The translations under genes and the position numbers were made by a program. This document shows positions 287-43,914 of a DNA stretch of 50,394 nt, piece by piece; position 1 is the stretch's first letter, and the number at the start of each line of letters is the position of its first letter. A model generated the notes under the pieces. It was given only the letters and a program-made list of their open reading frames with translations, made no database searches and was not told where the DNA came from. The DNA comes from an uncultured Bacteroidaceae bacterium (lineage in GTDB: Bacteria; Bacteroidota; Bacteroidia; Bacteroidales; Bacteroidaceae): NCBI GenBank assembly GCA_905234125.1, contig CAJOGQ010000009.1, forward strand, positions 1 to 50,394, read 5' to 3'.

Positions 287-316
287 CTCGATTTCTCGAT
301 TTCTCGATTCTCGATT
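287..316. repeat. CTCGATT heptamer array
   Basis: Four copies of CTCGATT in tandem; the first two are followed by one extra T, giving spacing of 8, 8 and 7 bp. It belongs to the group of short 7-bp-period arrays scattered through this window. Confidence 0.8.
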
Positions 317-348
317 GACGGACGTTTTTGCGGGAAAGGCGCTACACT

Positions 349-369
349 AAATGATAAATGATAAATGAG
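349..369. repeat. AAATGAT heptamer array
   Basis: Three tandem heptamers (AAATGAT twice, then AAATGAG) lie 8 bp beyond the stop codon of the TolC-like gene. The same unit occurs again at the other end of that gene, inside its signal-peptide coding region (1602-1636). Confidence 0.85.
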
Positions 370-377
370 AAAGGGCG

Positions 378-1652
378 TCAGCTGGTCTTGCGCCGATACT
401 CTGCCACGCGCATCTGGTAGGTGGCGCAGGCTGTGACCATCTGGCTCTGGGCTTGGGTGTAGAGGGTGATGGCATCGAGCAGGTCGGTCATGGTGGTGGT
501 GCCTGCGCTGTAGAAGATGTGTTGCATGCGGAGGTTTTCTTTGGCCGATTCTACTGAAGCTTTGGCGATGTCGATTTGCTTGTAAGCCTCTTCGAGATTG
601 TTCCATGCCGACTGGATGTCGATGGCCAGTTTCTCCTGAGCCTCCATGCGGTCATTTTCAGCTTGCAGACGTTGGAGCTTGGCTTTCTTGATGGCATGAC
701 TGCCTCCCCACCAGTCGCTGATGGGCACGGAGAGGGTGGCGAAAACTATACCGTTGGTGTTGTCGTGGCTGTCGATGGTGTAATAGAAGCCATTCACCCC
801 CACGGCTAAGGAGGGCAATAACTTGCCTCGTTCCATCTTCACATTCAGACGTTGCGCCTCTTCGTTCTTCTGCGAGAGTGCCAGTTCCTCACGGTTCTGT
901 ACGGATTCGTCCTTGTCTTTCAGATAGGTGAGGGGCAAGGAGCAAGGAGCAAGGGACGGGGCTTCAATGTCGCAGTCGCCCTCCGCAATCCCTGCTGTTT
1001 GTGCCAAAAGCATTTTCACGATGCAGATGCCGTTCTCCAGTTCGAGACGGTTGGAGGCAATCTCTTGTTGTTTCAGTTCCACTCGCAGAAGGTCGTTGTG
1101 GGTGATGACACCTGCATCGACGTAGTTCTTGGTGAGGCGATGCACCTCGTCGAGCTGTACCGTCACCGAGTCGAGGGTGGCAATGTTGCTTTGCAGGGAG
1201 ACGAGCTGCCAATAGTACTTCGCCACTTGCAGTTCGACGTTTTTCTCTGTCATCTGGAGTTGCAGCTGGTTCACCTCCTGCTGTAGGGTGGCGAGTTTGT
1301 TGCCGTTGATGATTTGTCCACCTTGAAAGAGGGGCTGTATGGCCATCATGCTGCCAACGAATCCCTTCTTCACCAAGGAGATGGGCATCTCATTCTCTCC
1401 TGCAGGCATGGAACCTTGGACGAGGTCTTCAAAACCTTGAAAACCGACCGCATTGGCACTCACCTGTGGGAAGAAGTGGGTGTAAGCCTTGGCCTTATCC
1501 TCCTTGGCCGACTCCACATTGAGACGGGCATTCTTCAACGTGCGATTGTTCTCCACAGCCTTCTGTTGTAACTGTTGGAGGGTGTATGTCTGCGCTGCGC
1601 TAAATGAAAAATGAAAAATGATAAATGATAAACTTATGCAGAACTTTTTCAT
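378..1652 (-). CDS. TolC-family outer membrane efflux channel
   Basis: Outer membrane component of a tripartite efflux system, about 424 residues. It has a signal peptide (MKKFCISLSF..., cleavage near SAAQ) followed by the two alternating helical/strand repeats typical of outer membrane efflux proteins, including the family-like starts 'TLQQLQQKAVENNRTLKNARL' and, in the second half, 'AQRLNVKMERGKLLPSLAVG'. I chose the ATG at 1652 because AAGGAT lies 6 bp before it; a TTG 21 bp upstream is in frame but less likely. It is the last gene of the adaptor-pump-channel operon, 23 bp after the pump. Two heptamer arrays lie inside the coding sequence: one encodes the hydrophobic core of the signal peptide, the other an 'APSLAPCSLPL' segment in mid protein. 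Family assignment is firm; the substrate cannot be told. Confidence 0.93.
   Translation of the reverse strand: MKKFCISLSFIIFHFSFSAAQTYTLQQLQQKAVENNRTLKNARLNVESAKEDKAKAYTHFFPQVSANAVGFQGFEDLVQGSMPAGENEMPISLVKKGFVGSMMAIQPLFQGGQIINGNKLATLQQEVNQLQLQMTEKNVELQVAKYYWQLVSLQSNIATLDSVTVQLDEVHRLTKNYVDAGVITHNDLLRVELKQQEIASNRLELENGICIVKMLLAQTAGIAEGDCDIEAPSLAPCSLPLTYLKDKDESVQNREELALSQKNEEAQRLNVKMERGKLLPSLAVGVNGFYYTIDSHDNTNGIVFATLSVPISDWWGGSHAIKKAKLQRLQAENDRMEAQEKLAIDIQSAWNNLEEAYKQIDIAKASVESAKENLRMQHIFYSAGTTTMTDLLDAITLYTQAQSQMVTACATYQMRVAEYRRKTS
927..961. repeat. AGCAAGG heptamer array inside TolC-like gene
   Basis: Five 7-bp units (GGTGAGG, GGCAAGG, AGCAAGG twice, GACGGGG). On the minus strand it reads in frame as a Pro/Leu/Ala/Cys-rich segment. 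Confidence 0.75.
1602..1636. repeat. AAATGAA/AAATGAT heptamer array in signal-peptide region
   Basis: Two AAATGAA, two AAATGAT and one degenerate unit in tandem. On the minus strand this encodes the Phe/Ile/Ser-rich hydrophobic core of the TolC-like signal peptide. Confidence 0.85.
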
Positions 1653-1675
1653 TGTTTTATCCTTATACTTCAATT

Positions 1676-4600
1676 CTATTTAGTTGATACTTTCCAATAA
1701 ACCACAGGGAGCATGGTGACGACCATGATGAGGGAGCCGATGCCACCTGCGAAGATGGTGACACCCACGGGCATCCAGAAGGAGGACTGGGCTATGATCA
1801 TCGGCACAACACCCACAGCAGTCGTGGCTGTGGTGAGGAAGATGGGCACCATGCGACGCTTGCCGGCTTCGTAGGCTGCCTGACGAACGGCCTTGTTGTA
1901 TGCTTCGCGGTCAACAGTCCAGTCTCCATGCTCAGCCACATACTTCTTGATCAGGTCGATGGCATGCTCGAAGATGAGAATCTCGTTGCGCATAATCATG
2001 CCCATGAGGGTGATGAGTCCGAAGATGGAGGTCAGTCCCAAAGCACGGTTCATCAGTCCGAGGCCGATGAGTGCGCCAGGAATCATCAGGGCTAAGGCCG
2101 CCATACAAATCGTGGTGATGCCATATTTCTTGAAGTTGAACAGCAAGAAGAAGAACACGATGACCATTGCGATGGCAATGCCTCCAAAGATCTGTGGCAA
2201 GGCTTCGTCGCCATATTCAATCTCGCCGCCCACCTCACAGCGGATGCCCTGTGGCAGCGTGATGTCTTCCTGCATGATGCGTGCAATCTCTTGTTCGACG
2301 GGCGCTGTATAGATGCCCTGCACGAACTGAGCCGTCACGGTGATGCAACGCTCGCCACCACGATGCACGATGCGGCTCTCGCTCCATTGAGGAGATACGT
2401 TGGCAATCTGACGCAGGGGAACGGTGGTGTTAGTTGAGAGTGGAGAGTTGACAGTTGATAGTTGGGAGGCTGCGGCAGACACCATTGATGTGGGCGACGC
2501 AATGCCGAGGTTGGCCACTTCGGAGAAAGTCATGTCGGCATCGTCCTTCACCACAATGGGAAGTTCATAATTACCCTCCCAAATCTGTCCCACACGCAGG
2601 TCGCAGGAGGTGGCGCTGAGTGACAATTGCGCTGTGGTGCGAGTGATGCCCAATTGGGCTGAGGTGACGGGGTCGAGCTTCACATTGATGATGGGATATG
2701 GCTGGTAGTAGTCGGTATGCACCCACTCCAATTCTGGCATCTTCCGCATGCGCTCCATCAGTCGTTCAGCCACTACATGCAGGGAGTCGAGGTCATCGCC
2801 GTAGAAGCGATACTCCAGTTCGTTCACCTCTAAATAGTCCAGTCGCTTGAACTTCACGTAGGCATTGGGGAAGGCCTCGCCCAACATGGGTTGATACTTC
2901 TCCAGAAGGCGAAGCGTGGCCTTGTCTGATGTCGTGTTCACGATGAATTGTGCATAGTTCTTTCCTGCCATCTGAGGTGCGTAGGCATCCATGAATCGAG
3001 GTGAAGAACACCCCATGAAGCCTGTGATGCCCACCACATCCTCGTCTTGTGCCAGCACATGACGCACAGAGTCGGCAATCACTTCGGTCTCAGCCAATCC
3101 CTTGCCATCGGGCAGGAAAATCTCGACAGCCAACTGGTCACGGTCGGCGTAGGGGAAGAGACGTATCTTCAGCGTTGGTGCAATGAGCGTGGAAACCAAG
3201 ATGACAGCGATGCCCCCAATGATGGTCGTCCACGGATGACGGAACGTCCAGTCGAGCACTCGGTCGTAGGTCTTCTGCACCCACTTTGTGATGGCGTTGC
3301 CGCCTGTTTTCACTTTGCCAGGCTTGATGATGCGCACTTCGAGGAAAGGAATCACCGTCACAGCCAAGAAAAGCGACGCCATCAGATTGATGGTAATCGT
3401 CCAGGGGAAATCTTCTAAACAGTCGTGGAACATACCCTTCATCGTGATGAGGAAGGGGAAGAAGATGGCGCAGATGCAGATGGTGGCGAGCATCATGGGC
3501 ATGAAGTACTGCTTGGCAGAATCGATGGCTGCCTGTTTGGGCTCATAACCCTTGTCGAGATACTCCAAATAGCCGTCAATCACCACGATGGAGTTGTCCA
3601 CCACCATTCCCAACACCACAATCAGCGCCGCCAAAGTCACGATATTCAGTTCGATGCCTGAAAGATACATGATGGACACAGATACAAATGTGCTCAATGG
3701 GATGGTGATGGCCGCCACGATGGCTGAACGCAAGGGGAACAGCACCATCATGACGAGGATGATGATAGCCATTGAGATGAGCAGGTCGCGCAGGAAATCG
3801 CTCACACTCATGCTCACCACTTTGGGCTTGTCGGCAATGCGTGTGATTTTCACATCCTCAGGCAGTTCTTCGGCTCGGAATGCGTCAAGCACACGTTCCA
3901 CTTCTTTGCCATACGCCACCACATTGTTGCCTGGTGTCATCTCCATCGACAGCAACACACAAGGATGCCCATCCTGTTCTATTCGGCTCGACATTGGTTC
4001 GTATTCCCTGACCACACGCGCCACATCCCTCACACGCGCCACCTTGCCTGTGGCAGGGTCGGAGAAGATGATTTGGTTGGCTATCTCCTCCTCTGAGTTC
4101 TCCTGAGTCTCCACATGGATGGGCACCTGTTGGTCATCATCGTCGATGCCGCCACTCAGGGTCGTGATGCCCTGGGCTTGCAGACGGGAGAAGAGCATCT
4201 GCTGACCGATGCCGTATGCCTGCAGACGCTGACGGTCGATATAAAGACTGATTTGCTCCTTCTGCTCACCAAACATCTTCACGTTGGCCACAGAGGGGAT
4301 GCGACGCAGACGGTCGCTTAAATCATCGCTGTATGTTTTTAGTTCACGATAACTGCGCTGGTCGCTCTCGATGGCGATGAGCAATGCGGAGGTGTTGCCG
4401 AAGTCGTCGTTCACCACGATGCCCAGCACGCCTGATGGCAATTGCGCCTTGAACGCATTCAGCCCATGCTTGATCTTGCTCCACACCTCGTCTTTGTTGT
4501 TCACGTCATCGTTCAGTTTCACCATCACGATGCACATGCCGTTCTGCGAGGTGGTGGTGGTCTTCACACGATTCACCTCGCCAAAGGTGAAGAGGTAACG

Positions 4601-4816
4601 CTCCAGCGGACGAGCCACCTGTTGCTCCACTTCCTCGCTGGTGGCACCAGGATAGATGGCAACCACCACACCCTGACGAATCGTGGCATGAGGAAACTCA
4701 TCCTTCGGCATATCCCACATACCAAAGATGCCCAGCACAAACAGGATGCCGATGATGAGCAACGATATTGAGTAGTGTTCCAATGGCCACTTCAGCCATT
4801 CCATCTTATTCTTCAT
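1676..4816 (-). CDS. RND-family efflux pump, inner membrane component
   Basis: Proton-driven resistance-nodulation-division transporter of 1046 residues, the usual length for AcrB/HAE1 relatives. The first transmembrane segment (about 15-33) is followed by a large periplasmic domain with the family motif 'IYPGATSEEVEQQV'. The central membrane block (340-500) contains 'VLGMVVDNSIVVIDGY'; Asp407 sits where AcrB has proton-relay Asp407, while the second AcrB Asp is Asn408 here. The second half repeats the fold and ends in four or more hydrophobic helices. The gene lies between adaptor and channel genes. Its ATG follows a 7-bp-repeat array with no clear Shine-Dalgarno site. A second in-frame array inserts a Ser/Thr/Asn/Leu-rich stretch at about residues 784-795, just before 'VPLRQIANV' in a periplasmic loop. 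Substrate unknown (drug, bile salt or similar). Confidence 0.95.
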   Translation of the reverse strand: MKNKMEWLKWPLEHYSISLLIIGILFVLGIFGMWDMPKDEFPHATIRQGVVVAIYPGATSEEVEQQVARPLERYLFTFGEVNRVKTTTTSQNGMCIVMVKLNDDVNNKDEVWSKIKHGLNAFKAQLPSGVLGIVVNDDFGNTSALLIAIESDQRSYRELKTYSDDLSDRLRRIPSVANVKMFGEQKEQISLYIDRQRLQAYGIGQQMLFSRLQAQGITTLSGGIDDDDQQVPIHVETQENSEEEIANQIIFSDPATGKVARVRDVARVVREYEPMSSRIEQDGHPCVLLSMEMTPGNNVVAYGKEVERVLDAFRAEELPEDVKITRIADKPKVVSMSVSDFLRDLLISMAIIILVMMVLFPLRSAIVAAITIPLSTFVSVSIMYLSGIELNIVTLAALIVVLGMVVDNSIVVIDGYLEYLDKGYEPKQAAIDSAKQYFMPMMLATICICAIFFPFLITMKGMFHDCLEDFPWTITINLMASLFLAVTVIPFLEVRIIKPGKVKTGGNAITKWVQKTYDRVLDWTFRHPWTTIIGGIAVILVSTLIAPTLKIRLFPYADRDQLAVEIFLPDGKGLAETEVIADSVRHVLAQDEDVVGITGFMGCSSPRFMDAYAPQMAGKNYAQFIVNTTSDKATLRLLEKYQPMLGEAFPNAYVKFKRLDYLEVNELEYRFYGDDLDSLHVVAERLMERMRKMPELEWVHTDYYQPYPIINVKLDPVTSAQLGITRTTAQLSLSATSCDLRVGQIWEGNYELPIVVKDDADMTFSEVANLGIASPTSMVSAAASQLSTVNSPLSTNTTVPLRQIANVSPQWSESRIVHRGGERCITVTAQFVQGIYTAPVEQEIARIMQEDITLPQGIRCEVGGEIEYGDEALPQIFGGIAIAMVIVFFFLLFNFKKYGITTICMAALALMIPGALIGLGLMNRALGLTSIFGLITLMGMIMRNEILIFEHAIDLIKKYVAEHGDWTVDREAYNKAVRQAAYEAGKRRMVPIFLTTATTAVGVVPMIIAQSSFWMPVGVTIFAGGIGSLIMVVTMLPVVYWKVSTK
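2432..2466. repeat. AGTTGAC-type heptamer array inside RND pump gene
   Basis: Five 7-bp units (AGTTGAG, AGTGGAG, AGTTGAC, AGTTGAT, AGTTGGG). It encodes, on the minus strand, 'SQLSTVNSPLST', the same peptide flavour as the linker of the LytTR regulator at 7317-7365. Confidence 0.85.
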
Positions 4817-4862
4817 AACCCTAAACTCTAAACTCTAAACCCTAAACTATCAACTCTCAACT
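4814..4862. repeat. Heptamer array filling the adaptor-pump spacer
   Basis: Seven 7-bp units (CTAAACT and variants, then ATCAACT, CTCAACT) run from the TAG stop of the adaptor gene up to the ATG of the pump gene, so the whole 44-bp spacer is repeat DNA. Confidence 0.9.
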
Positions 4863-6981: not shown

Positions 6982-7728
6982 CTATTTGCCTAAAAATCTG
7001 GTGTCCAGATAGGATTGGAAGGCATCTTTGTAGAGGTCGCCAATGGGCAGGTAGGTGTTGGCATCCATGATGACGCGGTTTTTGTTCACCTCCTGAATCT
7101 TGGTGAGATTGATGATATAGGAGCGATGGATGCGCATGAAGTGGTTGGGCAGGAACTCTGAGATTTTCTTCATAGAAAGGAGGGTGATGATGGGTTTGGA
7201 CTGGTTGTCCAACCACACCTTCAGATACTCGCTCATGGCCTCGACGTAACGGATGTCGGAGATGCTCACCTTGACTATGCGGGAATCTGTCTTGAGGAAG
7301 ATGGTGTCGTCGTGGGAGTTGACAGTTGACGGTTGAGAGTTGACAGTTGAGAGTTGAGAGTTGAGAGGTTTTTCTTCTAACCGCTCTCGAAGACGATTGG
7401 CAGCCCTTTGGAACTCCTGCAGACCAAAGGGTTTCAGCAGGTAGTCAACAGCGTTGACACGGAAGCCATCGACAGCATATTCGGAATAGGCGGTGGTGAA
7501 GACGACGAGGGGAGGGGAGACGAGCGACTTGACGAAATCCATTCCGTTGAGGTCGGGCATGTTGATGTCGCAGAAGATGGCATCGACGGTGTCGTGTTCC
7601 ATGAACTGACGGGCTTCCAAAGCGCTTTGGCATTGGGAAGCGAGTTCGAGGAACGGAACTTTATTGATGTAGGCGACGAGTTGCTTGAGCGCCAATGGCT
7701 CATCGTCGATGGCAAGACAACGGATCAT
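6982..7728 (-). CDS. LytTR-family response regulator
   Basis: Response regulator of 248 residues. The receiver domain (1-120) has the acidic pair 'IDDEP', phosphoacceptor Asp54 in 'IFCDINMPDLNG', a conserved Thr in 'VVFTTAYSEYA' and Lys in 'DYLLKPF'. A linker (about 122-138) is encoded by seven 7-bp repeats and reads Asn/Ser/Gln/Thr-rich. The C-terminal LytTR DNA-binding domain (140-248) shows 'RYVEAMSEYLKVWL' and 'FMRIHRSYIINLTKI'. It follows the histidine kinase gene by 28 bp and is its obvious partner. Targets are unknown; the carbohydrate-binding protein upstream in the same operon is one candidate. Confidence 0.95.
   Translation of the reverse strand: MIRCLAIDDEPLALKQLVAYINKVPFLELASQCQSALEARQFMEHDTVDAIFCDINMPDLNGMDFVKSLVSPPLVVFTTAYSEYAVDGFRVNAVDYLLKPFGLQEFQRAANRLRERLEEKPLNSQLSTVNSQPSTVNSHDDTIFLKTDSRIVKVSISDIRYVEAMSEYLKVWLDNQSKPIITLLSMKKISEFLPNHFMRIHRSYIINLTKIQEVNKNRVIMDANTYLPIGDLYKDAFQSYLDTRFLGK
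7317..7365. repeat. AGTTGAC/AGTTGAG heptamer array inside response regulator gene
   Basis: Seven tandem 7-bp units (AGTTGAC three times, GGTTGAG once, AGTTGAG three times). It lies in frame in the linker between receiver and LytTR domains and is the longest coding array in the window. Confidence 0.92.
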
Positions 7729-7732
7729 GGAT

Positions 7733-7768
7733 ATTTACTATTTTACTATTTACAATCTACAATTTAAG
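7733..7768. repeat. ATTTACT-type heptamer array in kinase-regulator spacer
   Basis: Units ATTTACT, ATTTTACT, ATTTACA, ATCTACA and ATTTAAG fill the gap between the kinase stop codon (TAG, inside the array) and the response regulator start. Confidence 0.7.
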
Positions 7769-8920
7769 TGGGAGCGTTAACTCCACGGAATAGACATCTG
7801 CATCGTCGTGGATGCGGAGTGTGTAGTTGCTGTCGTAGAGCAGGTCAAGACGCTTGCGGACGTTGGCAAGCCCTACACCACCTGACTTCTCTCCTTCTGG
7901 GGAATTGGTTGGAACCTCTATTTTCGAGTTGCGGCAAGTGAAACAGAGGTGAGGGGTGAGCGGTGAAGGGTGAGAGATTTCCACTTTTATTTCGATGAAC
8001 GATTCATGCTGATAGCTGACGCCATGCTTGAAAGCATTCTCGATGAAGGTGATGAGTATGAGTGGAGGTATCTGACGGTCGGGAACTTCTGAAGGCAGGT
8101 CGAGCGTAATCTTCACCTTCTCCGTGTAGCGCAGTTGCATCAGCGTGACATAGTGGCTGATGAAGTCGAGTTCGCGAGAGAGTGGCACGCCCTGTTTGTT
8201 GCCCTCGTAGAGCACGAAGCGCATCATTTTCGACAACTCCACAATGGTGTCCTTCGCCTGCTCGGGGTCTATATCGACCAGCGCGTGGATGTTGTTGAGC
8301 GTGTTCATGAAGAAGTGCGGATTGATCTGATAGCGCAGGTATTCCAGCTGTTGTTCCAGATTCTTGTGCTCCAGTTCAGCCAGACGCTTGCGGTCTTCAC
8401 GATTGCGGAAATAGCCTTTGATGCCGAGGTTGGCGCCAAACATCAGGATGAGCACCACGACGGCCAGGATGTCGCGCTCTCCGACGATGGGAGGTGGCAT
8501 GCCTGGGCGATGCTCTGCACGAGGTGGTCTGTGTTGTTTGTCGAAGGGAGGCGGTTCGTGTCTGTCCCTCTGCTCCATTGGCGGTCTGTGATCTCGATGC
8601 TCACCAGCTTTAGGTCTGCTGGTGCATTGATAGAGCGTGAACGCCACGATGATGACAGCCATGATGGAGAAGTACGCCACGCGTTTGTTTCTGTACACCA
8701 GCTGTGGTGCCAGCAGGAAGTTATGGACGAGGAAGAGCAACAGGAATGGGACGAACAGTCGCCACACGCCAAGCACTTCTGTCCAGTCGAACAGGAGGTC
8801 AGGGTCACTTACCGTCCGCACATACAAACTCAGCAGGGGGGATGCGAAGAGCAATCCCCACACTGCCAAGTAAATCAGGTTTTCCTGTTTTGATTGTTTC
8901 ATCCAATGTATATGTCTCAT
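7757..8920 (-). CDS. LytS/YpdA-type membrane sensor histidine kinase
   Basis: Sensor kinase of 387 residues for the LytTR regulator. Four hydrophobic segments (about 16-36, 54-70, 83-97, 150-167) suggest cytoplasmic ends. The loop between segments 3 and 4 (about 101-148), predicted periplasmic, is rich in His, Pro, Arg and Glu, with at least five His. The His_kinase domain has phosphoacceptor His202 in 'YQINPHFFMNTLNNIHAL', and the C-terminal ATPase domain has 'LILITFIENAFKHGV' (N box) and 'GGVGLANVRKRLDLLY' (G box). An alternative start is the ATG at 8902 (MKQSKQ). A short heptamer array (7947-7974) is coded in frame inside the ATPase domain. The gene sits 33 bp after the carbohydrate-binding protein gene, so probably in one operon with it. 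Confidence 0.93.
   Translation of the reverse strand: MRHIHWMKQSKQENLIYLAVWGLLFASPLLSLYVRTVSDPDLLFDWTEVLGVWRLFVPFLLLFLVHNFLLAPQLVYRNKRVAYFSIMAVIIVAFTLYQCTSRPKAGEHRDHRPPMEQRDRHEPPPFDKQHRPPRAEHRPGMPPPIVGERDILAVVVLILMFGANLGIKGYFRNREDRKRLAELEHKNLEQQLEYLRYQINPHFFMNTLNNIHALVDIDPEQAKDTIVELSKMMRFVLYEGNKQGVPLSRELDFISHYVTLMQLRYTEKVKITLDLPSEVPDRQIPPLILITFIENAFKHGVSYQHESFIEIKVEISHPSPLTPHLCFTCRNSKIEVPTNSPEGEKSGGVGLANVRKRLDLLYDSNYTLRIHDDADVYSVELTLPLKL
7947..7974. repeat. GGGTGAG heptamer array inside kinase gene
   Basis: Four 7-bp units (AGGTGAG, GGGTGAG, CGGTGAA, GGGTGAG), reading on the minus strand as 'HPSPLTPHL' in a loop of the ATPase domain. Confidence 0.75.
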
Positions 8921-11236: not shown

Positions 11237-13741
11237 ATGGAACTGAAAAAAGCGTGTATATTTTGGGTGTGCATCTTGTGTTGTTTCTTGTCGGCTGGGG
11301 CAGTCGATTTGAAGAAGTGCCGCATTGTGGTGAGTGAGAATGAGGTGGCTTTGGTGCAGAAGATGAGTGTGGTGCTGAGTGAGGATATTGAAAGGGTGAC
11401 AGGGGTGAAGCCCGAGGTGACGCATGATATGAGTGTGTGTGCACCTGGTCTGAATGTGAATTCTGATGGGTCGTCCCTTCAATTGGCGGCATCTGTCCCA
11501 TGCGCGGTGGTGTTGACCACGGTGGAGCATGTGGAGCCTGTGGCCTCGATGTTGGGGATACCGATGAAAGACATTGACAACATCAGGGGAAAATGGGAGT
11601 GCTACAAGATTGTGACATACACCAATCAGTTGATCATCATTGGCAGCGATGCCCGTGGACTGGCATACGGCGTTCTGCATGTGAGCGAGAAGATTGGGGT
11701 GAGCCCTTGGTATTGGTTTGCTGATGTGCCTGTGGCGAAGAAGGCGAAGCTGGATTATCAGGAGAATTACACGTCGAAGGAGCCTACCATCAAGTATCGT
11801 GGTGTCTTCATCAATGATGAGGACTGGGGCTTGAAGACGTGGGCGGAGAAGAATTTTGAGAAGGAACTGGGTGATATTGGTCCCAAGACTTACGATAAGG
11901 TGTGCGAACTGCTGTTGCGTCTGAAGGGCAACATGCTGGCACCGGCTATGCACACCTGTACGGGGGCTTTCTATAGCCATCCAGAGAGTCAGGTGAAGGC
12001 GGCAGAGTGGGGCATCATGATTACGACGAGCCATTGCGAGCCGATGCTCTTCAACAATGCGGCTCCATCGGAGTGGAACAAGGAGAGGGATGGTGAGTGG
12101 AACTACCTGACGAACAAAGAGACCATCTGGAAGAAGTTTGATAACCGTCTGAGAGAGACGGCTCAGTATGACAATATCTACACGACGGGCATGCGTGGTT
12201 TGCACGATGAAGCCATGAAAGGTTCGACTGACAACAAGGTGAGGGCTCGCACGTTGGAGCAGGTGATGGCCGACCAGCGTCAGATTCTGGAGCGCCACAA
12301 GGGAAAGCCTGCGACGGAGATTCCTCAGATTTTTGTGCCTTATAAGGAGACGTTGGACATCTATGATGCTGGTCTGAAGGTGCCAGAGGACATCACCCTC
12401 GTGTGGCCAGACGACAACTATGGCTACATGAAGCGTGTAAGCAACGAGACGGAAAGGCAACGCAAGGGTGGAAGTGGTGTGTATTATCACCTGAGTTATC
12501 TGGGCACACCTCACGATTTCCTGTGGATTTCGACGATGGCTCCTGTGCTGATGTATGAGGAGCTGAAGAAAGCTTATGATGCTGGTGCTGACCGCTATTG
12601 GCTCCTGAATGTGGGCGACATCAAGCCGATGGAAATGGATATGACGCAGTTCTTCGAGATGGCTTGGGACTTGGAACGGTTTGACCTGAACGCTAAATCC
12701 TCCAAATCAGTTCATCCTAATCGTTATCAGGCTGGGTGGCTTGCTTCGATGTTTGGCAAGCAGTATGAGAAGGACTTCCAATGGGTGCTCGACCAGTATT
12801 ACCGTCTGGCTTGGCAACGCCGACCAGAGTTCATGGGCTATGAGTTGGAGTGGGACAACAATGAGAACAACCGTTTGCACGATACGGATTTCTCTTTCCA
12901 GACAGGTACTGCCCAGCAACGACTGGCTGACTACAAGGCCATCAGCGACAAGGTGGATGCCATTGAGAAAGCTTTGCCAGAGGATTTGCGTCCTGCTTTC
13001 TTCGAGATACTCAGCTACAGCGTGAAGGGTGCCTATCAGATGAACCTCAAGTTCCTGATGGCTCAGCAGAATCATGAGACAGGCAGCGAGGAATGGGCAC
13101 GCAAGTCGAGGGAGGCTAATGACAGCATCATGGCGCTGACTCATCAATACAACACGCAGCTGAATGGCAAGTGGAATCAGATGATTTCGGAGATTCCTCC
13201 AGGCTACACGGCTAAATATCACCTGATGCCGGAGTTTGTGTCGGCTCCTACAGACGCGTATAAACTTCCTGATACTCAGCAGAGAACAGAATTTGCCAAG
13301 AAAGTGGATTTGTCGAGCGTGAAGGTAAAAGCTCCTTTCCGTCTGATAGAGGGCTTGGGTACTGATTGGGTTGGCTTGCAGATGGGTGAACCCTTGAATG
13401 AGGTGCAGAATCCAGGCAGTTTGACATCGGGGCATATCGACCTGACGTTGGGCAATGATATGGAAGTGGGCGACTCCATCACGCTGTGTGTGTCGGTGGT
13501 GCCCTTCTGGCCAGTTGACTATGGAAGGAGCAATCGTCTGGGTGTGAGTGTGGATGGTTGTACGCCTGTGGTGTGTGAGAACCAATTCACGGAGTGGGGT
13601 TGGAGCTGGAAGTTGCAGGTATTGGAGAACAAGAAAGACTATGTGGTGACCTTGCCTCTCGAAAAGACGAAGAAGAGTCATACCCTCTCCCTCATCATTG
13701 GCGACCCAGGACAAATCGTACAAAGAATCACTTATAAGTAG
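11237..13741 (+). CDS. GH115 alpha-glucuronidase (xylan)
   Basis: Glycoside hydrolase of family GH115, which removes (4-O-methyl-)glucuronic acid side chains from glucuronoxylan, including internal ones. From the ATG at 11237 it is 834 residues with signal peptide MELKKACIFWVC...SAGA. The family signature 'KYRGVFINDEDWGL' is at 186-199, followed by 'RLKGNMLAPAMHT' and 'TTSHCEPML', and later 'VWPDDNYGYMKRVSN' and 'WLLNVGDIKPMEMDMTQFFE'. The last 150 residues form the beta-sandwich end usual for the family. The start was set by the signal peptide and the promoter at 11184-11215. The esterase gene follows after 42 bp in the same direction, the spacer starting with a short heptamer array at the TAG stop. 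Family assignment is strong from the motif set. Confidence 0.93.
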   Translation: MELKKACIFWVCILCCFLSAGAVDLKKCRIVVSENEVALVQKMSVVLSEDIERVTGVKPEVTHDMSVCAPGLNVNSDGSSLQLAASVPCAVVLTTVEHVEPVASMLGIPMKDIDNIRGKWECYKIVTYTNQLIIIGSDARGLAYGVLHVSEKIGVSPWYWFADVPVAKKAKLDYQENYTSKEPTIKYRGVFINDEDWGLKTWAEKNFEKELGDIGPKTYDKVCELLLRLKGNMLAPAMHTCTGAFYSHPESQVKAAEWGIMITTSHCEPMLFNNAAPSEWNKERDGEWNYLTNKETIWKKFDNRLRETAQYDNIYTTGMRGLHDEAMKGSTDNKVRARTLEQVMADQRQILERHKGKPATEIPQIFVPYKETLDIYDAGLKVPEDITLVWPDDNYGYMKRVSNETERQRKGGSGVYYHLSYLGTPHDFLWISTMAPVLMYEELKKAYDAGADRYWLLNVGDIKPMEMDMTQFFEMAWDLERFDLNAKSSKSVHPNRYQAGWLASMFGKQYEKDFQWVLDQYYRLAWQRRPEFMGYELEWDNNENNRLHDTDFSFQTGTAQQRLADYKAISDKVDAIEKALPEDLRPAFFEILSYSVKGAYQMNLKFLMAQQNHETGSEEWARKSREANDSIMALTHQYNTQLNGKWNQMISEIPPGYTAKYHLMPEFVSAPTDAYKLPDTQQRTEFAKKVDLSSVKVKAPFRLIEGLGTDWVGLQMGEPLNEVQNPGSLTSGHIDLTLGNDMEVGDSITLCVSVVPFWPVDYGRSNRLGVSVDGCTPVVCENQFTEWGWSWKLQVLENKKDYVVTLPLEKTKKSHTLSLIIGDPGQIVQRITYK

Positions 13742-13759
13742 TTTAGGGTTTAGAGTTTT
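13739..13759. repeat. Heptamer array at the GH115 stop codon
   Basis: Units TAGTTTA, GGGTTTA, GAGTTTT; the first three bases are the stop codon. The same unit sequence occurs on the minus strand in the array at 4814-4862. Confidence 0.7.
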
Positions 13760-13783: not shown

Positions 13784-15178
13784 ATGAAAAGAATCTTTTC
13801 CGTATGTGTGCTGATGCTCATCGTCACGATGGCATTTGCAGCGAAAGTTGACAAAGTCGTGAACATCTCTGTCAAAGATGATAACGGCAAAACAGAGACA
13901 CGCTCCTATAGGCTTTACGTACCCAATGGCGTGAAAGAAAACGCTCCGTTAGTGGTATCTCTTCATGGTGCTAATGGTAATCAATACGCAAATCGCCCGA
14001 TGACTACAGATGTAGCAGATGCAGAAGGCTTCATTGTGGTTTATCCACAGGGAAAAACGATTAACTTCTATCTTGCAGGTATGAACACGACGGGTTGGAA
14101 TTCTACAGGTGAGGATAATGCAGATGTTGAGTTTATCAAGGCTGTGATTGAAGATGTAGCCAAGAACTATTCCATCGATCGCAATCGCATTTACTGCTGC
14201 GGATTCTCTAATGGTGGTATGATGACCTATGCACTCTCCAACACGTGTAGCGACATCTTTGCCGCTTTTGCTTCTATTAGCGGATTACAAATGAATGAGT
14301 TTCACTTCCATCACACAGGTGTACGTCCAGTTCCATTCCTCCATATTCATGGAAAGGCCGATGATTTTGTGAAGTATTCATGCATGCCTGTCATTGTGGA
14401 TGAAATGGTGGCACGTATCGGTGCTAATCCTGTGGGTGTGAAGACTACGGCGAAAGGTAAGTATGACAAGAATGTGTATGAGGCAGCAGAAGGTGGTTTC
14501 CCCTATGTCTATTATGAAGTAGATGGTATGGGACATAACGACTTTACAAACAGTACCCCTGAAGGTAATTCGGCCAAGACCATGTGGAAGCACTTCCAGC
14601 AGTACACCCTCGATACTCCTTGTGATGCGACCCTCAAGTGGGCTCCCCGTATTGAGGAAGAAGGTTATGAACCCAAGAAGCATGGATGGATTATGAATGC
14701 AGGCACGACATTGCTTTCTTTTGGTCGTGATCAGCATAAGTCTGACAACAGTGACAACAATGTCTATCGCTCCTTCCAACTTGACAATGGTAACTATAAA
14801 CTTAGCTTCCATTCAGAGGGTGAGGCTGGCAAAACCATGACTGTGAAGATTCAGAAATTGTCTGGCAAGCGCAATGTGGTGCTTAACTCCACAGCCAGTG
14901 TTGGTGGAGATGCTGCTTTCGCCTTTAAGATTGAAGATGGTTGGGGTGAGTACAAATTTACTCTTACTCGTGAGAATGCAGCCGATGAGATAACCATCAC
15001 CAAACTCATGCTCACTACTGCTACAGACGAGGAAGTGTCGGCTCTTTCTGCTCCACAAGCAAAACGAGGTGGTCTGGAGCAGTCTTACACACTTTCAGGC
15101 ATTCCAACAGCTCAGCCTCAGCACGGCATCAATGTGGTGAAGGCTGGTGATGAAGTGAAGAAGGTGTTTGTGAGATAG
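13784..15178 (+). CDS. CE1-type secreted esterase (feruloyl/acetyl-xylan; PHB-depolymerase-like fold)
   Basis: Secreted serine esterase of 464 residues with signal peptide MKRIFSVCVLMLIVTMAFA. The alpha/beta-hydrolase domain (about 25-275) has the oxyanion segment 'PLVVSLHGANGN', nucleophile Ser142 in 'CCGFSNGGMM', a likely acid at Asp193/194 in 'HIHGKADDFV' and His251 in 'GMGHNDF', the LpqC/poly(3-hydroxybutyrate) depolymerase-like pattern of CE1 esterases. Residues about 280-420 form an extra beta-rich domain that could bind carbohydrate, and the end ('QSYTLSGIPTAQPQHGINVV' plus a basic tail) is like the C-terminal sorting tails on other secreted proteins here. Being behind GH115 suggests removal of ferulate or acetate from xylan; which ester is cut is open. 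Confidence 0.87.
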   Translation: MKRIFSVCVLMLIVTMAFAAKVDKVVNISVKDDNGKTETRSYRLYVPNGVKENAPLVVSLHGANGNQYANRPMTTDVADAEGFIVVYPQGKTINFYLAGMNTTGWNSTGEDNADVEFIKAVIEDVAKNYSIDRNRIYCCGFSNGGMMTYALSNTCSDIFAAFASISGLQMNEFHFHHTGVRPVPFLHIHGKADDFVKYSCMPVIVDEMVARIGANPVGVKTTAKGKYDKNVYEAAEGGFPYVYYEVDGMGHNDFTNSTPEGNSAKTMWKHFQQYTLDTPCDATLKWAPRIEEEGYEPKKHGWIMNAGTTLLSFGRDQHKSDNSDNNVYRSFQLDNGNYKLSFHSEGEAGKTMTVKIQKLSGKRNVVLNSTASVGGDAAFAFKIEDGWGEYKFTLTRENAADEITITKLMLTTATDEEVSALSAPQAKRGGLEQSYTLSGIPTAQPQHGINVVKAGDEVKKVFVR

Positions 15179-15224
15179 TTGACAGTTGATAGTTGACAGT
15201 TGATAGTTGACAGTTGACAGTTAA
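15176..15224. repeat. TAGTTGA/CAGTTGA heptamer array at the esterase stop codon
   Basis: Seven tandem units, TAGTTGA and CAGTTGA mostly alternating, beginning exactly with the TAG stop codon and running into the terminator hairpin. Confidence 0.93.
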
Positions 15225-25711: not shown

Positions 25712-29615
<3,904 letters not shown>

Positions 29616-40081: not shown

Positions 40082-40086
40082 TGGTG

Positions 40087-40094
40087 CAAAGTTA
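40087..40094 (-). promoter_or_regulatory. -7 box of putative small RNA B
   Basis: TAACTTTG on the minus strand followed by CACCAG, in a block conserved with 25472-25491. Confidence 0.5.
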
Positions 40095-40355
40095 CGGACT
40101 TTTCACGACATAGACTTTCTCTTTTGTTTCATTTGCTTTAACATTCTGAACACGAACCCATTTTTTCAAATATGTATCATAATTGAAAATAAATGTAACA
40201 AAAAAACGAAGCCTCGCAATAAATTTCAGAAGAATTAGGGAAATAAGATCATTCGTTCCGCCGGAACTTGTTCTTAAAAACATGCCCTTTCCGCGCAAAC
40301 GCCCGTAAAAAGACAAAAGATAAAAAAGATGTTTTTACAACAAGAGCGTGACGAA

Positions 40356-40469
40356 TTACTCGTCATTCTCTTTGTTGTTCTCTTGGTTTTTCCTTTTCAA
40401 CTTCTGGACGTAGGAGACCAAGCCGAAGATGGAGCCGGCTAAGAGGAATGTTTGGGCGATGTACCTCCT
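40356..40469 (-). pseudogene. Possible 3' remnant of a small membrane protein gene
   Basis: An open stretch on the minus strand preceded by an in-frame TAA and without ATG reads 'YIAQTFLLAGSIFGLVSYVQ' and then a Lys/Asn/Glu-rich end before TAA. One hydrophobic helix with a charged tail looks protein-like, and AGGAGG precedes it, but no start codon follows at proper distance. Either a decayed gene or chance. Confidence 0.3.
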
Positions 40470-40513
40470 TTAGTGTGATGGATGGAGAAAGCGGAAGGGG
40501 GCATGAGTTGACA

Positions 40514-40583
40514 TTCGCAAAATGAATGAAGGGAATGGATGGGGTGTACACTCCTTTCCATTCCCTTCAACTCAACTTGCGAA
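40514..40583. other. Extended palindrome (cruciform-like)
   Basis: Perfect 12-bp arms GAAGGGAATGGA (40528-40539) and TCCATTCCCTTC (40557-40568), flanked by outer arms TTCGCAA (40514-40520) and TTGCGAA (40577-40583), and with a further palindrome GGGGTGTACACTCC in the loop. It lies 72 bp beyond the stop of the leftward helical-repeat gene and may end its transcript, though it has no clear T tract. Confidence 0.6.
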
Positions 40584-40654
40584 CTTTTAGCTTATATAAT
40601 TCGCAGCGAACTTAGAGCTCGACGTAGTCAAAGTTCAGTGATTTTCATTTGACA

Positions 40655-42835
40655 TCAGAAGGTGATGATGACTTTCTTGCCATCTTTCACATATATACCC
40701 ATCATGGTGGGCTTACCTGCGAGTCGGTGTCCATTCATGTCATACCACCCCTTTGCTTTAATGGTATCGTTGACAGGAGTGGCATTGATGTCTGTATAAG
40801 CCTCCAGATCTGCATAGGTCTTCTCGGCATCAGTCAACACGTTGTAGTTCGTTACGAGTTCCTTCTGCGTGTCAGTCAGGGCATCGTATGCTTCGCGTGC
40901 TGCATCGATGAGGGCTTTGCAGTCGTCGGTGTAGGCCACCTCTCCGATGTCAGCAATCTTGGCAATGACAGCATTGGCCGCAGCCTGATTGGCAGCTTGC
41001 TCAGCAGCAGCCTGGTCAGCGGCGGTTTTCAGATCTGCGTAGGTTGCCTCGGCATCGGTCAGCACGTTATAGTTTGTTACGAGCTCTTTCTGCGTGTCAG
41101 TCAGTGCATCGTATGCTGCACGTGAAGCATCGATAAGCGCTTTGCTCTCGTCGGTATAGGTCACCTCTCCGATGTCTGCAATTTTAGCGATGACGGCATC
41201 TGCGGCAGCCTGATTAGCAGCGGCTTGTTCGGCGGCAGCTTGCTCAGCAGCGGCTTGCTCAGCAGCAGCCTGGTCAGCAGCTGCTTTCAGTGCAGCGTAG
41301 GTTGCCTCGGCATCGGTCAACACTTCATCGTTGGTTACGAGTTCCTTCTGCGTGTCAGTCAGGGCATCGTATGCTTCGCGTGCAGCATCGATAAGCGCTT
41401 TGCACTCGTCGGTGTAGGCCACCTCTCCAATGTCAGCAATCTTGGCGATGACAGCATTGGCAGCAGCCTGATTGGCAGCGGCTTGTTCTGCGGCAGCTTG
41501 CTCAGCGGCGGCTTGCTCTGCAGCAGCCTGGTCAGCAGCGGCTTTCAGATCTGCGTAGGTTGCCTCGGCATCTGTCAGCATGTTGTAGTTCGTTACAAGT
41601 TCCTTCTGTGTGTCAGTCAGTGCATCGTATGCTTCGCGTGCTGCATCGATGAGGGCTTTGCAGTCGTCGGTGTAGGCCACCTTTCCGATGTCAGCAATCT
41701 TGGCAATGACAGCATTGGCCGCAGCCTGATTGGCAGCTTGCTCAGCAGCAGCCTGGTCAGCAGCAGCTTTCAGATCTGCATAGGTCTTCTCTGCATCTGT
41801 CAGCACGTTGTAGTTCGTTACGAGCTCTTTCTGCGTGTCAGTCAAGGCATCGTATGCTTCACGTGCTGCATCAATGAGCGCTTTGCTTTCGTCGGTGTAG
41901 GCCACCTCTCCGATGTCAGCAATCTTAGCGATGACAGCATCTGCGGCAGCCTGATCTGCTGCAGCTTGGGTGGCACCAGTGCTAATGGTGAGCGTAGTCA
42001 CGTCGTCGGACACCTCGTAAAATTTGCTGATGTCAGTCTCACTGAGTTTGATGTCCTTTAATATGATGGGGTACTCACCATCGGCCATGTTCTTGATGTT
42101 CACTTTGACGGTGGCTATCTCGCCAGATGTGCCGGTGAAGGTCTCGTCATACTGCGAGCCGCAGAGGAAACGGATGGCATCGTCGGCCTGCTCAGCTACG
42201 GTCAGCGTGTGCTCGTCATCTTCTGGCAGACGGGCTGCATTCAGCGATGCCGCAACCTTGCCCTTTGATGTCTTCACGGCGGTCATGCCGTCTGGAAGGT
42301 ACATGTCAAACTGAAAGCCGCGAATATCTGCCGTGTTGTTCATGCAGATGGAGAGTTCTATCTCAGTGACAATGGCAGGAGCCACATAGATGATGTTGTT
42401 GTAGTCTGTCACATCGGTGTCTTCAGTGGCAGAACTGACGGTGAGCTTTGTCACGACCTCGGACACCTCGTAGAACTTGCTGATGTCAGTCTCGCTGAGC
42501 TTGACGGCTTTCAGTGTGATGGGGTACTTGCCGTTGGACAGCCCCTTGATGTTGACCTTGATGGTGGCTATCTTGCCCGACGTGCCGGTGAAAGTCTCGT
42601 CATACTGCGAACCGCAGAGGAAGCGGAGGGCGCCGTCAGCCTGCTCGGCCACAGTCAGCGTGTGTTCGTCATCTTTGGACAGACGGGCTGCATTCAGCGA
42701 TGCCACAATCTTTCCTTTCGACGTCTTCACGGCGGTCATGCCGTCTGGAAGGTACATGTCAAACTGAAAGCCGCGAATATCTGCCGTGTTGTTCATGCAG
42801 ATGGAGAGTTCTATCTCAGTGGGCAGAAGCCACAT
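40655..42835 (-). CDS. Cohesin-like and helical-repeat surface protein (main open frame; 5' end frameshifted)
   Basis: The open frame codes for 726 residues, but its first codons (MWLLP) are an artefact of a frameshift: the signal peptide is coded in another frame just upstream (42816-42929). Content: two nearly identical 151-residue units with 'ADIRGFQFDMYLPDGMTAVK' and 'GTSGKIATIKVNIKGLSNGK', a beta-sandwich pattern like cohesin or related carbohydrate-binding domains; then five helical repeats of 75-86 residues with 'YTDESKALIDAAREAYDALT' and 'DTQKELVTNYNVLTDAE', joined by Ala/Glu/Gln-rich linkers; then a tail 'KGWYDMNGHRLAGKPTMMGI' plus a basic strand, like the sorting tails of other secreted proteins. 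The dockerin-like protein gene lies 58 bp upstream. Function unknown; a scaffold or adhesin is plausible. Confidence 0.75.
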   Translation of the reverse strand: MWLLPTEIELSICMNNTADIRGFQFDMYLPDGMTAVKTSKGKIVASLNAARLSKDDEHTLTVAEQADGALRFLCGSQYDETFTGTSGKIATIKVNIKGLSNGKYPITLKAVKLSETDISKFYEVSEVVTKLTVSSATEDTDVTDYNNIIYVAPAIVTEIELSICMNNTADIRGFQFDMYLPDGMTAVKTSKGKVAASLNAARLPEDDEHTLTVAEQADDAIRFLCGSQYDETFTGTSGEIATVKVNIKNMADGEYPIILKDIKLSETDISKFYEVSDDVTTLTISTGATQAAADQAAADAVIAKIADIGEVAYTDESKALIDAAREAYDALTDTQKELVTNYNVLTDAEKTYADLKAAADQAAAEQAANQAAANAVIAKIADIGKVAYTDDCKALIDAAREAYDALTDTQKELVTNYNMLTDAEATYADLKAAADQAAAEQAAAEQAAAEQAAANQAAANAVIAKIADIGEVAYTDECKALIDAAREAYDALTDTQKELVTNDEVLTDAEATYAALKAAADQAAAEQAAAEQAAAEQAAANQAAADAVIAKIADIGEVTYTDESKALIDASRAAYDALTDTQKELVTNYNVLTDAEATYADLKTAADQAAAEQAANQAAANAVIAKIADIGEVAYTDDCKALIDAAREAYDALTDTQKELVTNYNVLTDAEKTYADLEAYTDINATPVNDTIKAKGWYDMNGHRLAGKPTMMGIYVKDGKKVIITF
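40797..41970. repeat. Five tandem coding repeats (226-258 bp)
   Basis: Anchor positions 40815, 41041, 41297, 41555 and 41787 give periods of 226, 256, 258 and 232 bp. The length difference lies in the number of 15-bp units coding Ala-Ala-Ala-Glu-Gln in the linkers. Confidence 0.9.
41985..42820. repeat. Two-copy coding duplication, 453-bp period
   Basis: Two adjacent cohesin-like units are almost identical in DNA over long stretches; for example the CTATCTCAGT anchor is at 42358 and 42811, 453 bp apart. A recent in-frame duplication. Confidence 0.85.
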
Positions 42836-42929
42836 ATATGATGTTGTCGTAGGCTGTCACATCGGTGTCTGCTTTCACAGTAATCTGTGCCAGACAGAGC
42901 ATCGCAAACAGGGATAATATCTTTTTCAT
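42816..42929 (-). pseudogene. Frameshifted 5' end (signal peptide) of the cohesin-like gene
   Basis: From ATG at 42929 it reads MKKILSLFAMLCLAQITVKA, then 'DTDVTAYDNIIYVASA', and hits TGA after one more codon. The second repeat copy has 'DTDVTDYNNIIYVAPA' followed by six bases ATTGTC before ACTGAG; here only one C stands there. A 5-bp loss near 42821 therefore breaks the frame and separates the signal peptide from the rest. Confidence 0.85.
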
Positions 42930-42987
42930 TTTCGTTTGGGTTTGAAATGATTGAGCCTTAACTATTCATGACAAATATGTGAAAGAG

Positions 42988-43914
42988 TTACTTGCCATTG
43001 ATATTCCCGTAGAGGATGAGGTTCGCCACGCCGATATAGTCGCTCACGTCGATAACGCCATCGCCATTCACGTCGGCTGCTTTCTTGTTGAAGCCATTGG
43101 GGATGTTGCCAAGAATGTAGTTGGCAATACCAATATAGTCGCTCACATCCACCATACCATCACCAGTCGCATCGCCAATCAGAACCACTTCTTCTTCCTC
43201 CTCTTCACCTTTTCCAAGGGTACGAACGCGTTTGCTGGCGGCATTGTAGTACTTCAAGGTGACGCTCTCGCCTTCCTTGCGCTGGTAAACGGTCAGGGTT
43301 GCCGGTTGAGCGTTAGGAGTTGAGAATTGAGTGACACCACGGCACTTGTTGCCGACAAAGGCACCCACTATGTCTCCCTCAGCGGGGGTGATACCATCTG
43401 ATTTCAAGATGTCGGTGAGGTCAATGTTTTTCACCACGGGGAATTTTGGGGAGCCGAGGGTAAATGGTGGAATGAGATCCTCATCGAGGCCGAAGCCATC
43501 TTCCACGTTGTACGTGATGGTCTTCGAAAGGGAAAAGATTTGGTGGAGCTGGGCATTGTAGTACTTCAGGGTGACATCTATCTTTTCGCCGTTGGCCTCG
43601 TTGCCGAAGGCTTTCAGCAAGAAGGATGTGGCGTTGGTGTTGTCACCGCCCACAACGTAGGCGGGGCTGGCCAATCCACGCAGCTCGTTACCAACGAAGA
43701 TGGCCATCTGGTCGTTCTTTGAAACGTAGGGCTGGAGGGCCTCCTCAATCTTCACCAGCATCACGGTGAAGTTCTCGTAGTCAGAGGTGGTGGGAGCCTG
43801 CCAGTCAGGGCGCTTCTGATTGTAGCTCCAGTCGATTTGCCAGTCTGGGGCATCTTGGGCAAACACCTGGAGGGACAGGGTTGCCAACAGGATTAGTTGA
43901 AATATCTTTTTCAT
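42988..43914 (-). CDS. Secreted dockerin-like (EF-hand repeat) protein
   Basis: 308-residue secreted protein, signal peptide MKKIFQLILLATLSLQVFA. Two beta-rich units contain 'DQMAIFVGNELRGLASPAYV' and 'GDIVGAFVGNKCRGV', each followed by 'LKYYNA'; related units occur in the giant protein upstream. The last 63 residues hold two Ca-binding-loop repeats, 'GDATGDGMVDVSDYIGIANY' and 'ADVNGDGVIDVSDYIGVANL', the duplicated F-hand pattern of type I dockerins. A run of Glu precedes them. A heptamer array (43296-43330) is coded in frame. The gene sits between the LamG giant (50 bp) and the cohesin-like gene (58 bp), probably one operon. The dockerin could anchor it to a cohesin partner; not proven. Confidence 0.85.
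   Translation of the reverse strand: MKKIFQLILLATLSLQVFAQDAPDWQIDWSYNQKRPDWQAPTTSDYENFTVMLVKIEEALQPYVSKNDQMAIFVGNELRGLASPAYVVGGDNTNATSFLLKAFGNEANGEKIDVTLKYYNAQLHQIFSLSKTITYNVEDGFGLDEDLIPPFTLGSPKFPVVKNIDLTDILKSDGITPAEGDIVGAFVGNKCRGVTQFSTPNAQPATLTVYQRKEGESVTLKYYNAASKRVRTLGKGEEEEEEVVLIGDATGDGMVDVSDYIGIANYILGNIPNGFNKKAADVNGDGVIDVSDYIGVANLILYGNINGK
43296..43330. repeat. GAGTTGA-type heptamer array inside dockerin-like gene
   Basis: Five degenerate 7-bp units (GGGTTGC, CGGTTGA, GCGTTAG, GAGTTGA, GAATTGA), in frame as 'QFSTPNAQPATL' on the minus strand. Confidence 0.65.

Follow-up and report, generated by a model that had tools for sequence, protein, structure and literature searches.

The stretch of DNA analysed here (the window) is the whole of contig C9 (CAJOGQ010000009.1; 50,394 bases) in the draft genome of an uncultured Bacteroidaceae bacterium (2.695 Mb, 107 contigs, rated 84% complete), and it carries short, degenerate tandem arrays of heptamers within and between its genes. 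These arrays may together form a single repeat system that extends across the genome and has a palette of units of its own, and that would have spread by the copying of units and then grown in register by blocks; the probability of this reading was put at about 45%. The period of the arrays, their palette, the differences at orthologous sites, the block structure and the stop-free orientation within genes were observed directly.

Period 7 and the palette of units

Tandem repeats were listed with Tandem Repeats Finder (TRF; score 30) and by a direct lag-identity test, and shuffled controls were made with an order-3 Markov model (60 shuffles for the window, one control for the larger sample). 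The sample of the own genome comprised 1,237,384 bases (1.24 Mb) and 146 degenerate period-7 arrays; contigs C79, C71 and C65 had been chosen for matches to AGTTGACAGTTGAC, and without them the sample was 1.196 Mb with 137 arrays. Exact lag-7 runs spanning 10 positions or more numbered 126 in the 1.24 Mb and 0 in the control, and exact runs at the other primitive periods from 4 to 13 numbered 1 to 21. Both excesses on which the earlier note on this DNA had staked its case, over other periods and over shuffled sequence, were found. Degenerate arrays at periods 5, 6 and 8 to 13 numbered 0 to 15. Among longer periods, the multiples of 7 gave 109 (period 14) and 53 (period 21), and periods 15, 20 and 22 gave 8, 0 and 38.

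Relatives were retrieved via the HlyD-like protein; their titles were Prevotella, Prevotellaceae or Bacteroidales, many came from the rumen and the closest showed 84% protein identity. Since the 80 relative loci surround one gene, one orthologous array was possibly counted in several of them. Period-7 arrays numbered 132 in 50 of the loci, the other 30 having none, and period-8 arrays numbered 36. L001, L002, L069 and L070 were excluded from counts. A process that makes or prefers 7-bp steps, as the earlier note had proposed, was supported. Among 45 draft genomes of the genus (the collections used hold one genome per species), the TTGA core gave 2390 matches at step 7, 343 at step 8 (in 27 genomes) and 2 at step 6 (in 2 genomes). 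For the AGTT core, genome G048 had 356 matches at step 8 vs 21 at step 7, and a 67-kb sample of it, one stretch of which was match-selected, contained 11 period-7 and 4 period-8 arrays. In a phylum-wide draw for which at least 90% completeness had been requested, TTGA arrays occurred in 113 of 296 genomes. Octamer arrays, such as TTGAGTTT and TTGAAGAA, were numerous in some genomes of the genus (G048, G050, G020, G045). Of the stretches sampled from these genomes, one from G048 and the majority of those from G045, G020 and G050 had been picked for matches. Neighbouring octamer arrays in the loci examined formed 19 inverted pairs and 1 direct pair.

The heptamer units had been described as unrelated among loci, and this had been taken to argue against simple copying of one repeat; neither statement was borne out. 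The 146 arrays fell into 35 circular unit classes, four of which accounted for 77 arrays. Identical units were found in 819 of 10,585 pairs, about 65 times the 12.6 (maximum 26 in 300 draws) expected if each array had grown from a heptamer within 150 bp, and about 31 times the 26.1 (maximum 44) expected when this null was restricted to stop-bearing heptamers. Moreover, a unit was more like those of the other arrays in its genome than like those from elsewhere, a likeness that copying or templating inside one genome would produce. In the relatives, after neighbours within 300 bp had been merged (120 arrays, 50 loci), identical units made up 10.4% of 163 within-genome pairs vs 2.7% under label permutation (maximum 6.7% in 300), and the mean within-genome unit distance was lower than in all 300 permutations. 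A companion comparison gave 10.2% identical pairs within and 2.5% between genomes.

The palette differs from genome to genome. The relatives mostly have arrays of units that the own genome does not use, and the proportions of TTGA, TTAG and GTGA matches vary among 34 genomes (chi-square 1628, 66 degrees of freedom, a statistic inflated by overlapping matches). The respective matches were 198/2/0 in G001, 0/0/36 in G053, 2/23/1 in G041 and 164/34/19 in the own genome; G023 and G004, one of them rated 99% complete, had 0/0/0 matches to these three array patterns among the 45 genomes.

Unit structure, orthologous sites and the proposed copying of units

A stop triplet (TGA, TAA or TAG) was present on one strand of the circular unit in 131 of the 146 own arrays and 123 of the 132 relative arrays, compared with 8,770 of 20,000 random genomic heptamers. 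In the TTGA arrays of the own genome, the free base of the unit, which follows TGA, alternates: lag-2 matches were 53/74 vs 33.3 by permutation (standard deviation, s.d., 3.7), and lag-1 matches 42/123 vs 54.4 (s.d. 3.6). When all arrays were considered, the own genome showed raised unit identity at lag 2 (z 3.4) and the relatives at lag 3 (z 3.6), and both showed a deficit at lag 1 (z -2.2 and -2.1). Growth by blocks of 14 and 21 bp fits these patterns better than repeated slippage of one unit. Copies of a multi-copy HU-HIG family (Pfam match of the L066 copy), examined at L003, L049, L066, L020 and L212, have 0, 3, 4 or 8 AGTTGAC units or an interrupted array downstream; several contigs begin there.

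Orthologous sites differ in units and in the presence of arrays. The RND pump gene was present in 79 of the 80 relative loci. Among the 70 in which its start was located, 20 had a strict array in the gap between the HlyD-like and RND genes. By eye, this gap ranged from 2-4 bp to a heptamer fill from stop to start, with at least 8 unit families. Between loci that are about 88-91% identical in DNA, the same gap held ACATTGA (L092) vs AGTGAAT (L096), or no array (L087) vs AATGCAT/AATTCAT (L095). Similarly, the linker of the response regulator contained a GGTGAGA array in L100, none in L096 and AGTTGAC in the window. An array in the RND loop, in stop-free orientation, was marked by eye in 6 of 72 tree rows (L082 and L143, bearing other insertions there, were left unmarked). 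Its units vary among these rows (e.g., AATTGAC in L088), and it required at least 5 changes on a quick tree. In a solved relative, the stretch aligned to this loop is a short turn. The response-regulator linker of L085 and an outer-membrane protein of L131, places where other loci receive heptamer arrays, have residues resembling by eye translated GC-rich dispersed repeats.

Placement was determined with genes called as the longest open reading frames (ORFs). The 146 own arrays comprised 48 in ORFs, 56 in tandem gaps, 21 in divergent gaps, 11 in convergent gaps and 10 at edges. Within ORFs, the stop-bearing strand was antisense in 34 arrays, sense in 4 and neither in 10, the corresponding numbers in the relatives being 41, 12 and 8. 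The arrays in tandem gaps had it on the coding side in 31 cases and antisense in 18, and 7 fell in neither class; the relatives gave 41, 12 and 2.

The palette, together with the differences at orthologous sites, argues for unit copying between sites. Units of existing arrays would be copied to new sites during replication or break repair, possibly by unit-wise template switching of housekeeping replication and repair enzymes; once there, an array would probably lengthen by in-register blocks of 14 to 21 bp. Purifying selection would decide on retention, and we infer that intergenic regions, linkers and loops hold most arrays as passengers that the cell tolerates. Three enzymes, reverse transcriptase, Y1 (HUH) transposase and Y-family polymerase, were considered as required factors and rejected, as their presence or absence was uncorrelated with array load among the 45 draft genomes. 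The own draft genome had no RVT_1 match at E<=0.001 and no Y1 transposase match, and a Y-family polymerase had no match in three array-rich genomes (G055, G003, G056). Since none of the enzymes tested tracks the load, unit-wise template switching by housekeeping replication and repair is favoured.

Several results weigh against this copying scheme. The base after TGA mismatched the consensus at 0.239 in 114 TTGA arrays, compared with 0.008 to 0.077 at the other six positions, and such a hypervariable base after the stop triplet is left unexplained by plain copying. The 34 ATGA arrays showed a mismatch of 0.164 at the same base and the 41 TTAG arrays one of 0.215, with a second free position (0.17); in the 51 GTGA arrays the most variable position (0.114) lay one base further along, and in TTAA, GTAA and ATAA arrays the pattern was less clear. 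Strings of units common to own arrays were not beyond permutation (3-unit strings, 86 vs 78.0, s.d. 9.2; 4-unit strings, 13 vs 8.3, s.d. 2.8), so that any copying would be unit-wise with frequent switching and long verbatim copying is unsupported. Neither a donor site nor a target-site duplication or junction homology was shown. In the other genomes sampled, the lag effects did not reach significance (lag 1 z -1.0, lag 2 z 1.5), and some units (AAGTGAA) were found again in several species. The RND-loop label showed little clustering on the tree (equally low in 55 of 500 shuffles), and its distribution agrees with several independent gains as well as with a single gain followed by many losses. 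In 93,940 aligned bases of close relatives, none of the 23 gaps in period-7 context measured exactly 7, 14 or 21 bases, a comparison of low power.

Rival origins

Each array could instead have arisen by independent slippage of a local heptamer, 7 being favoured since about 7 nt of duplex contact the polymerase, an idea already in print. The prevalence of period 7 over other short periods here, and of step 7 over 6 and 8 in the genus, agrees with this, as do the whole-unit differences between HU-HIG paralogues. Arrays facing a gene end also often begin at the stop codon, within 0-2 bases of its first base (10 of 78 own, 21 of 71 in relatives), where duplications would be harmless. However, slippage predicts a unit diversity that follows the local sequence, and local slippage from random seeds is strained by the recurrence of identical units far above both null expectations. 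It is also at odds with the deficit of identical lag-1 neighbours, seen in the relatives as well as in the own genome, with the concentration of variation at one unit position, and with the preference of the AGTT core for step 8 in G048. Slippage as the origin of each array is considered unlikely.

The possibility that the arrays are selected binding sites, in which a protein or RNA recognises stop-bearing heptamers near gene ends or promoters and the palette follows the recogniser of each species, appears improbable. A conserved core with one free position would suit a recogniser, and near 3' ends the purine strand was the coding strand in 42 vs 22 cases in the own genome and 61 vs 22 in the other genomes. 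Near 5' ends, however, no orientation bias was seen (24 vs 29 own, 21 vs 24 in other genomes), the same site holds other units or none in relatives, arrays lie within protein loops and linkers, and all three array patterns are absent from two genomes of the genus.

The word GCAAAGGTA, counted in favour of binding sites, was found in the 70 bp preceding 16 of 191 arrays vs 0.75 expected; it is the reverse of TACCTTTGC, which we take to be a promoter-like word. These 191 arrays come from an enlarged own sample of 1.51 Mb, counts on which are skewed upward because 16 of the 20 added stretches were picked for AGTTGACAGTTGAC matches. No non-periodic 9-base word lay within 70 bp of more than 16 of the 191 arrays, and this lack of a widely common flanking word argues against most arrays being conventional elements with fixed flanks. 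The word GCATCGCGYHAG occurred 20 times in the 1.51 Mb vs about 1.1 expected (14 times in 1.20 Mb not match-selected), and its sites (e.g., L066:7305, L012:8482, L029:6674) adjoin heptamer arrays or AT-rich or GC-rich inverted repeats.

Equally improbable is a dedicated telomerase-like enzyme that would write the arrays from a short template with one degenerate position, hairpin elements being part of the same system. Such a writer would account for one hypervariable position among fixed ones, for the 14-bp alternation and for the genome-specific palettes. Moreover, a hairpin element of about 33 bp, CTTGGC-RA-GCCAAGCGTGCTAAAGATACGAT, interrupts arrays. Sought by its first 14 fixed bases, it gave 72 matches in 14 of the 45 genomes. 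Thirty loci were inspected, with 27 distinct sites, and 13 of these sites were flanked by an array on at least one side, compared with 6.4% of random positions in the same loci. The stricter form of the hairpin was present at 24 distinct sites, and at 15 of them the units on its two sides matched best at the in-register offset (mean identity 0.55, vs 0.20 to 0.37 at other offsets); several of the 24 had no clear array, and seven earlier cases had by eye array-like surroundings of the local palette. Against a writer stand the lack of an RVT_1 match in the own draft genome and the failure of reverse transcriptase and Y1 transposase to track the load; no candidate gene or template RNA was found, and Rfam gave no match at curated thresholds in seven hairpin-bearing loci.

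The form CTTGGC-RA-GCCAAGCG...ACGAT often splits heptamer arrays between units (L231-L260, L212, L075, L097, L118, L127), and two further 3' forms have the first hairpin of the ~33-bp element in common. Hairpin elements of about 100 bp with heptamer-array arms (AGTGAAA-type, then ATCTAAGTTAC or similar) were seen at L048:5848-5948, L018:965-1069, L037:13446-13542 and L202:9801-9915, with TGCCATNCGG in the loop of three of the four; TGCCATNCGG was also found between octamer and GC-rich arms. An inverted partner within 200 bp was present for 21 of the 146 own arrays vs 5 at a control distance. A minority of arrays do belong to such elements, and the view that all are arms of hairpin elements of the type of miniature inverted-repeat transposable elements (MITE) or repetitive extragenic palindromes (REP) was rejected on this count.

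In filamentous cyanobacteria, short tandemly repeated repetitive sequences are known, as are small dispersed repeats that form hairpins and lie within tandem heptamers. The arrays described here are alike in the embedded small hairpin; the phylum is a different one, and the likeness noted is one of layout. A broader and still more doubtful proposal is that Bacteroidota, and by parallel design cyanobacteria, have a templated array-writing system with one degenerate template position and a hairpin companion, the products of which would be reused as spacers, linkers and signal peptides. It would cover heptamer, and sometimes octamer, arrays from a genome-specific palette.

Contingency loci, in which changes of copy number switch genes on or off, are very improbable: 7 is not a multiple of 3, so that arrays in genes could shift the frame, and paralogues do differ in copy number, but the RND-loop array has by eye about five units in all six bearing rows (78-93% protein identity to that of the window), close pairs showed no 7n gaps (low power), and only 48 of the 146 own arrays lie in ORFs.

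Arrays of the window and known heptamer repeats

The period-7 arrays that the earlier note had listed in the window are real, and all 12 places were measured. At a strict threshold 7 arrays were found vs 0 in each of the 60 shuffles, and at a looser one 11 vs a mean of 0.28 and a maximum of 2. Period 7 was returned by TRF at 10 of the 12 places; the place at 287 is of period 8, and that at 43296 was not listed at score 30. Lag-7 matches were high at seven places, namely 349 (16/17), 927 (18/21), 1602 (23/24), 2432 (24/30), 4814 (34/42), 7317 (39/44) and 15176 (35/40), and weaker at 7947 (16/21), 13739 (10/13), 7733 (19/27) and 43296 (18/28). The units are related across places: 2432, 7317, 15176, 43296 and part of 4814 belong to the TTGA family, 4814 and 13739 to RGTTTAG, and 349 and 1602 to AAATGAN.

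Several of the arrays adjoin or lie within the outer-membrane efflux gene (378-1673, - strand) and the RND pump gene (1676-4816, -). The first, at 287..316, is an octamer array (CTCGATTT x3.9, listed by TRF without a strand), in which the identity at lag 8 (16/22) is better than that at lag 7 (11/23). Just 3' of the efflux gene, TAAATGA x3.6 lies at 348..372 (+ strand; TRF and lag test). Antisense within this gene, AGGAGCA x3.4 at 931..954 (+; TRF), a unit without a stop triplet, directly precedes the second OEP stretch (residues 256-427). AAATGAA/AAATGAT x4.4 at 1602..1632 (+; TRF) is also antisense to the efflux gene and encodes on the gene strand SLSFIIFHFSF, the hydrophobic core of an apparent signal peptide (MKKFCI..SAAQ). 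The pump gene contains AGTTGAG/C/T x5.3 in stop-free orientation at 2432..2468 (+; TRF), and the loop encoded there is 9 residues shorter in most of the RND orthologues listed. The gap between the HlyD-like stop codon and the RND start codon is occupied by an array at 4817..4862 (-; TRF), which reads AGTTGAG AGTTGAT AGTTTAG GGTTTAG... on the coding strand.

The LytTR response-regulator gene (6982-7728, -) has AGTTGAC/AGTTGAG x7.4 at 7316..7367 (+; TRF), in the linker joining the receiver and DNA-binding domains. A degenerate array (coding strand AGTAAAT) at 7732..7766 (-; TRF and lag test) lies in the gap between the histidine kinase stop and the response regulator start. Within the kinase gene (7757-8920, -), GGTGAGG x3.9 at 7948..7974 (+; TRF) is a 5-residue insertion compared with L096 and L100. 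The arrays within genes of the window thus include sites in the response-regulator linker, ahead of the second repeat of the outer-membrane protein, in the pump loop and in a kinase loop. Further along, a weak array of AGTTTAG x2.7 lies between the GH115 and esterase genes at 13740..13758 (+; TRF and lag test). AGTTGAC/AGTTGAT x6.6, alternating with a 14-bp step, is found at 15177..15222 (+; TRF and lag test); it begins within the esterase stop codon, and a hairpin comes next. Degenerate TTGAG-type heptamers occur at 43296..43330 (+; lag test) in the dockerin-domain gene (42988-43914, -). An octamer array absent from the earlier list, CGTTATCA x4.4, lies between the GH43 and GH10 genes at 27382..27416 (TRF, no strand). 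In addition, a 726-residue ORF (40655-42835, -) contains nested repeats of 225-258 bp and 15/30 bp at 40805-41955.

Some arrays have probably been put to use, e.g., as signal-peptide cores. At a looser threshold and over all loci examined, 46 of 199 arrays in ORFs start within the first 40 residues, the start codons being uncertain, and about 11 of these 46 look by eye like signal peptides. Arrays in ORFs are common in the first tenth of the ORF (42 of 199). Hydrophobic cores of apparent signal peptides encoded by arrays were seen at 1602-1632 in the window and in L126, L088, L218, L012 and L083.

An excess of heptanucleotide repeats in prokaryotes has been reported, with the contact of 7 nt by the polymerase as its explanation (Mrazek et al. 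2007; PMC4679880, PMC4692102). The passages available on this idea report no test of it, and the remark in the earlier note that no mechanism is established was a fair one. As described in these passages, such repeats are like the present arrays in their clear excess of period 7 and in having no known function; the present arrays, too, are commoner than in shuffled sequence, with period 7 as the most abundant class. They differ by the palette, the stop triplet, the one variable position and the whole-array differences between relatives.

Direct repeats of TAACTGA have been described from Beggiatoaceae, Cyanobacteria and five Bacteroidetes (MacGregor 2015; PMC4679880). According to the passages available, they are alike in the heptamer, the stop triplet, intergenic arrays and arrays adjacent to start codons, presence or absence at one gap in relatives, and occurrence in some Bacteroidetes. 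However, they have one dominant unit, the single-base variants of which are rarely repeated, whereas the own genome has 35 unit classes and its single-base variants AGTTGAG, AGTTGAC and AGTTGAT all form arrays, often mixed. The circular unit TAACTGA is absent from the 35 classes of the 146 own arrays. The GGGNATC and GGGGA(C/T)T repeats of Xanthomonas and Nostoc (Rehm et al. 2015; PMC4692102) are, in the passages available, similar in combining fixed and free positions, in being under-represented on the coding strand within ORFs and in lying on that strand near 3' ends. They are G-rich, form G-quadruplexes in vitro and show an upstream bias to the non-coding strand that was not seen here. GGG is absent on either strand from the eight commonest own units (103 of 146 arrays) and is present in a few minor units, e.g., AGGGGCG. 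In Geobacter metallireducens, four or five tandem heptamers occur at many sites, 49 in one family and some in genes (PMC2700814); they have one consensus per class and were read as regulatory, and no palette is described in the passages available.

In the literature searched, no earlier description was found of a genome-specific palette of several units with a free base after the stop triplet and turnover at orthologous sites, nor an earlier report of such arrays in Prevotella. An excess of heptanucleotides in bacteria and systems with one main unit are known; the palette, the free position and the site turnover are apparently new. The genus, with array-rich and array-free genomes and orthologous sites with and without arrays, is test material for the idea of 2007, and the signature of the unit, i.e., one free base and 14-bp alternation, is a constraint on any mechanism. 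If the arrays are copied or written into new sites, they would steadily supply intergenic regions, domain linkers and signal peptides with new DNA, and would also be a source of assembly breaks in an abundant gut group.

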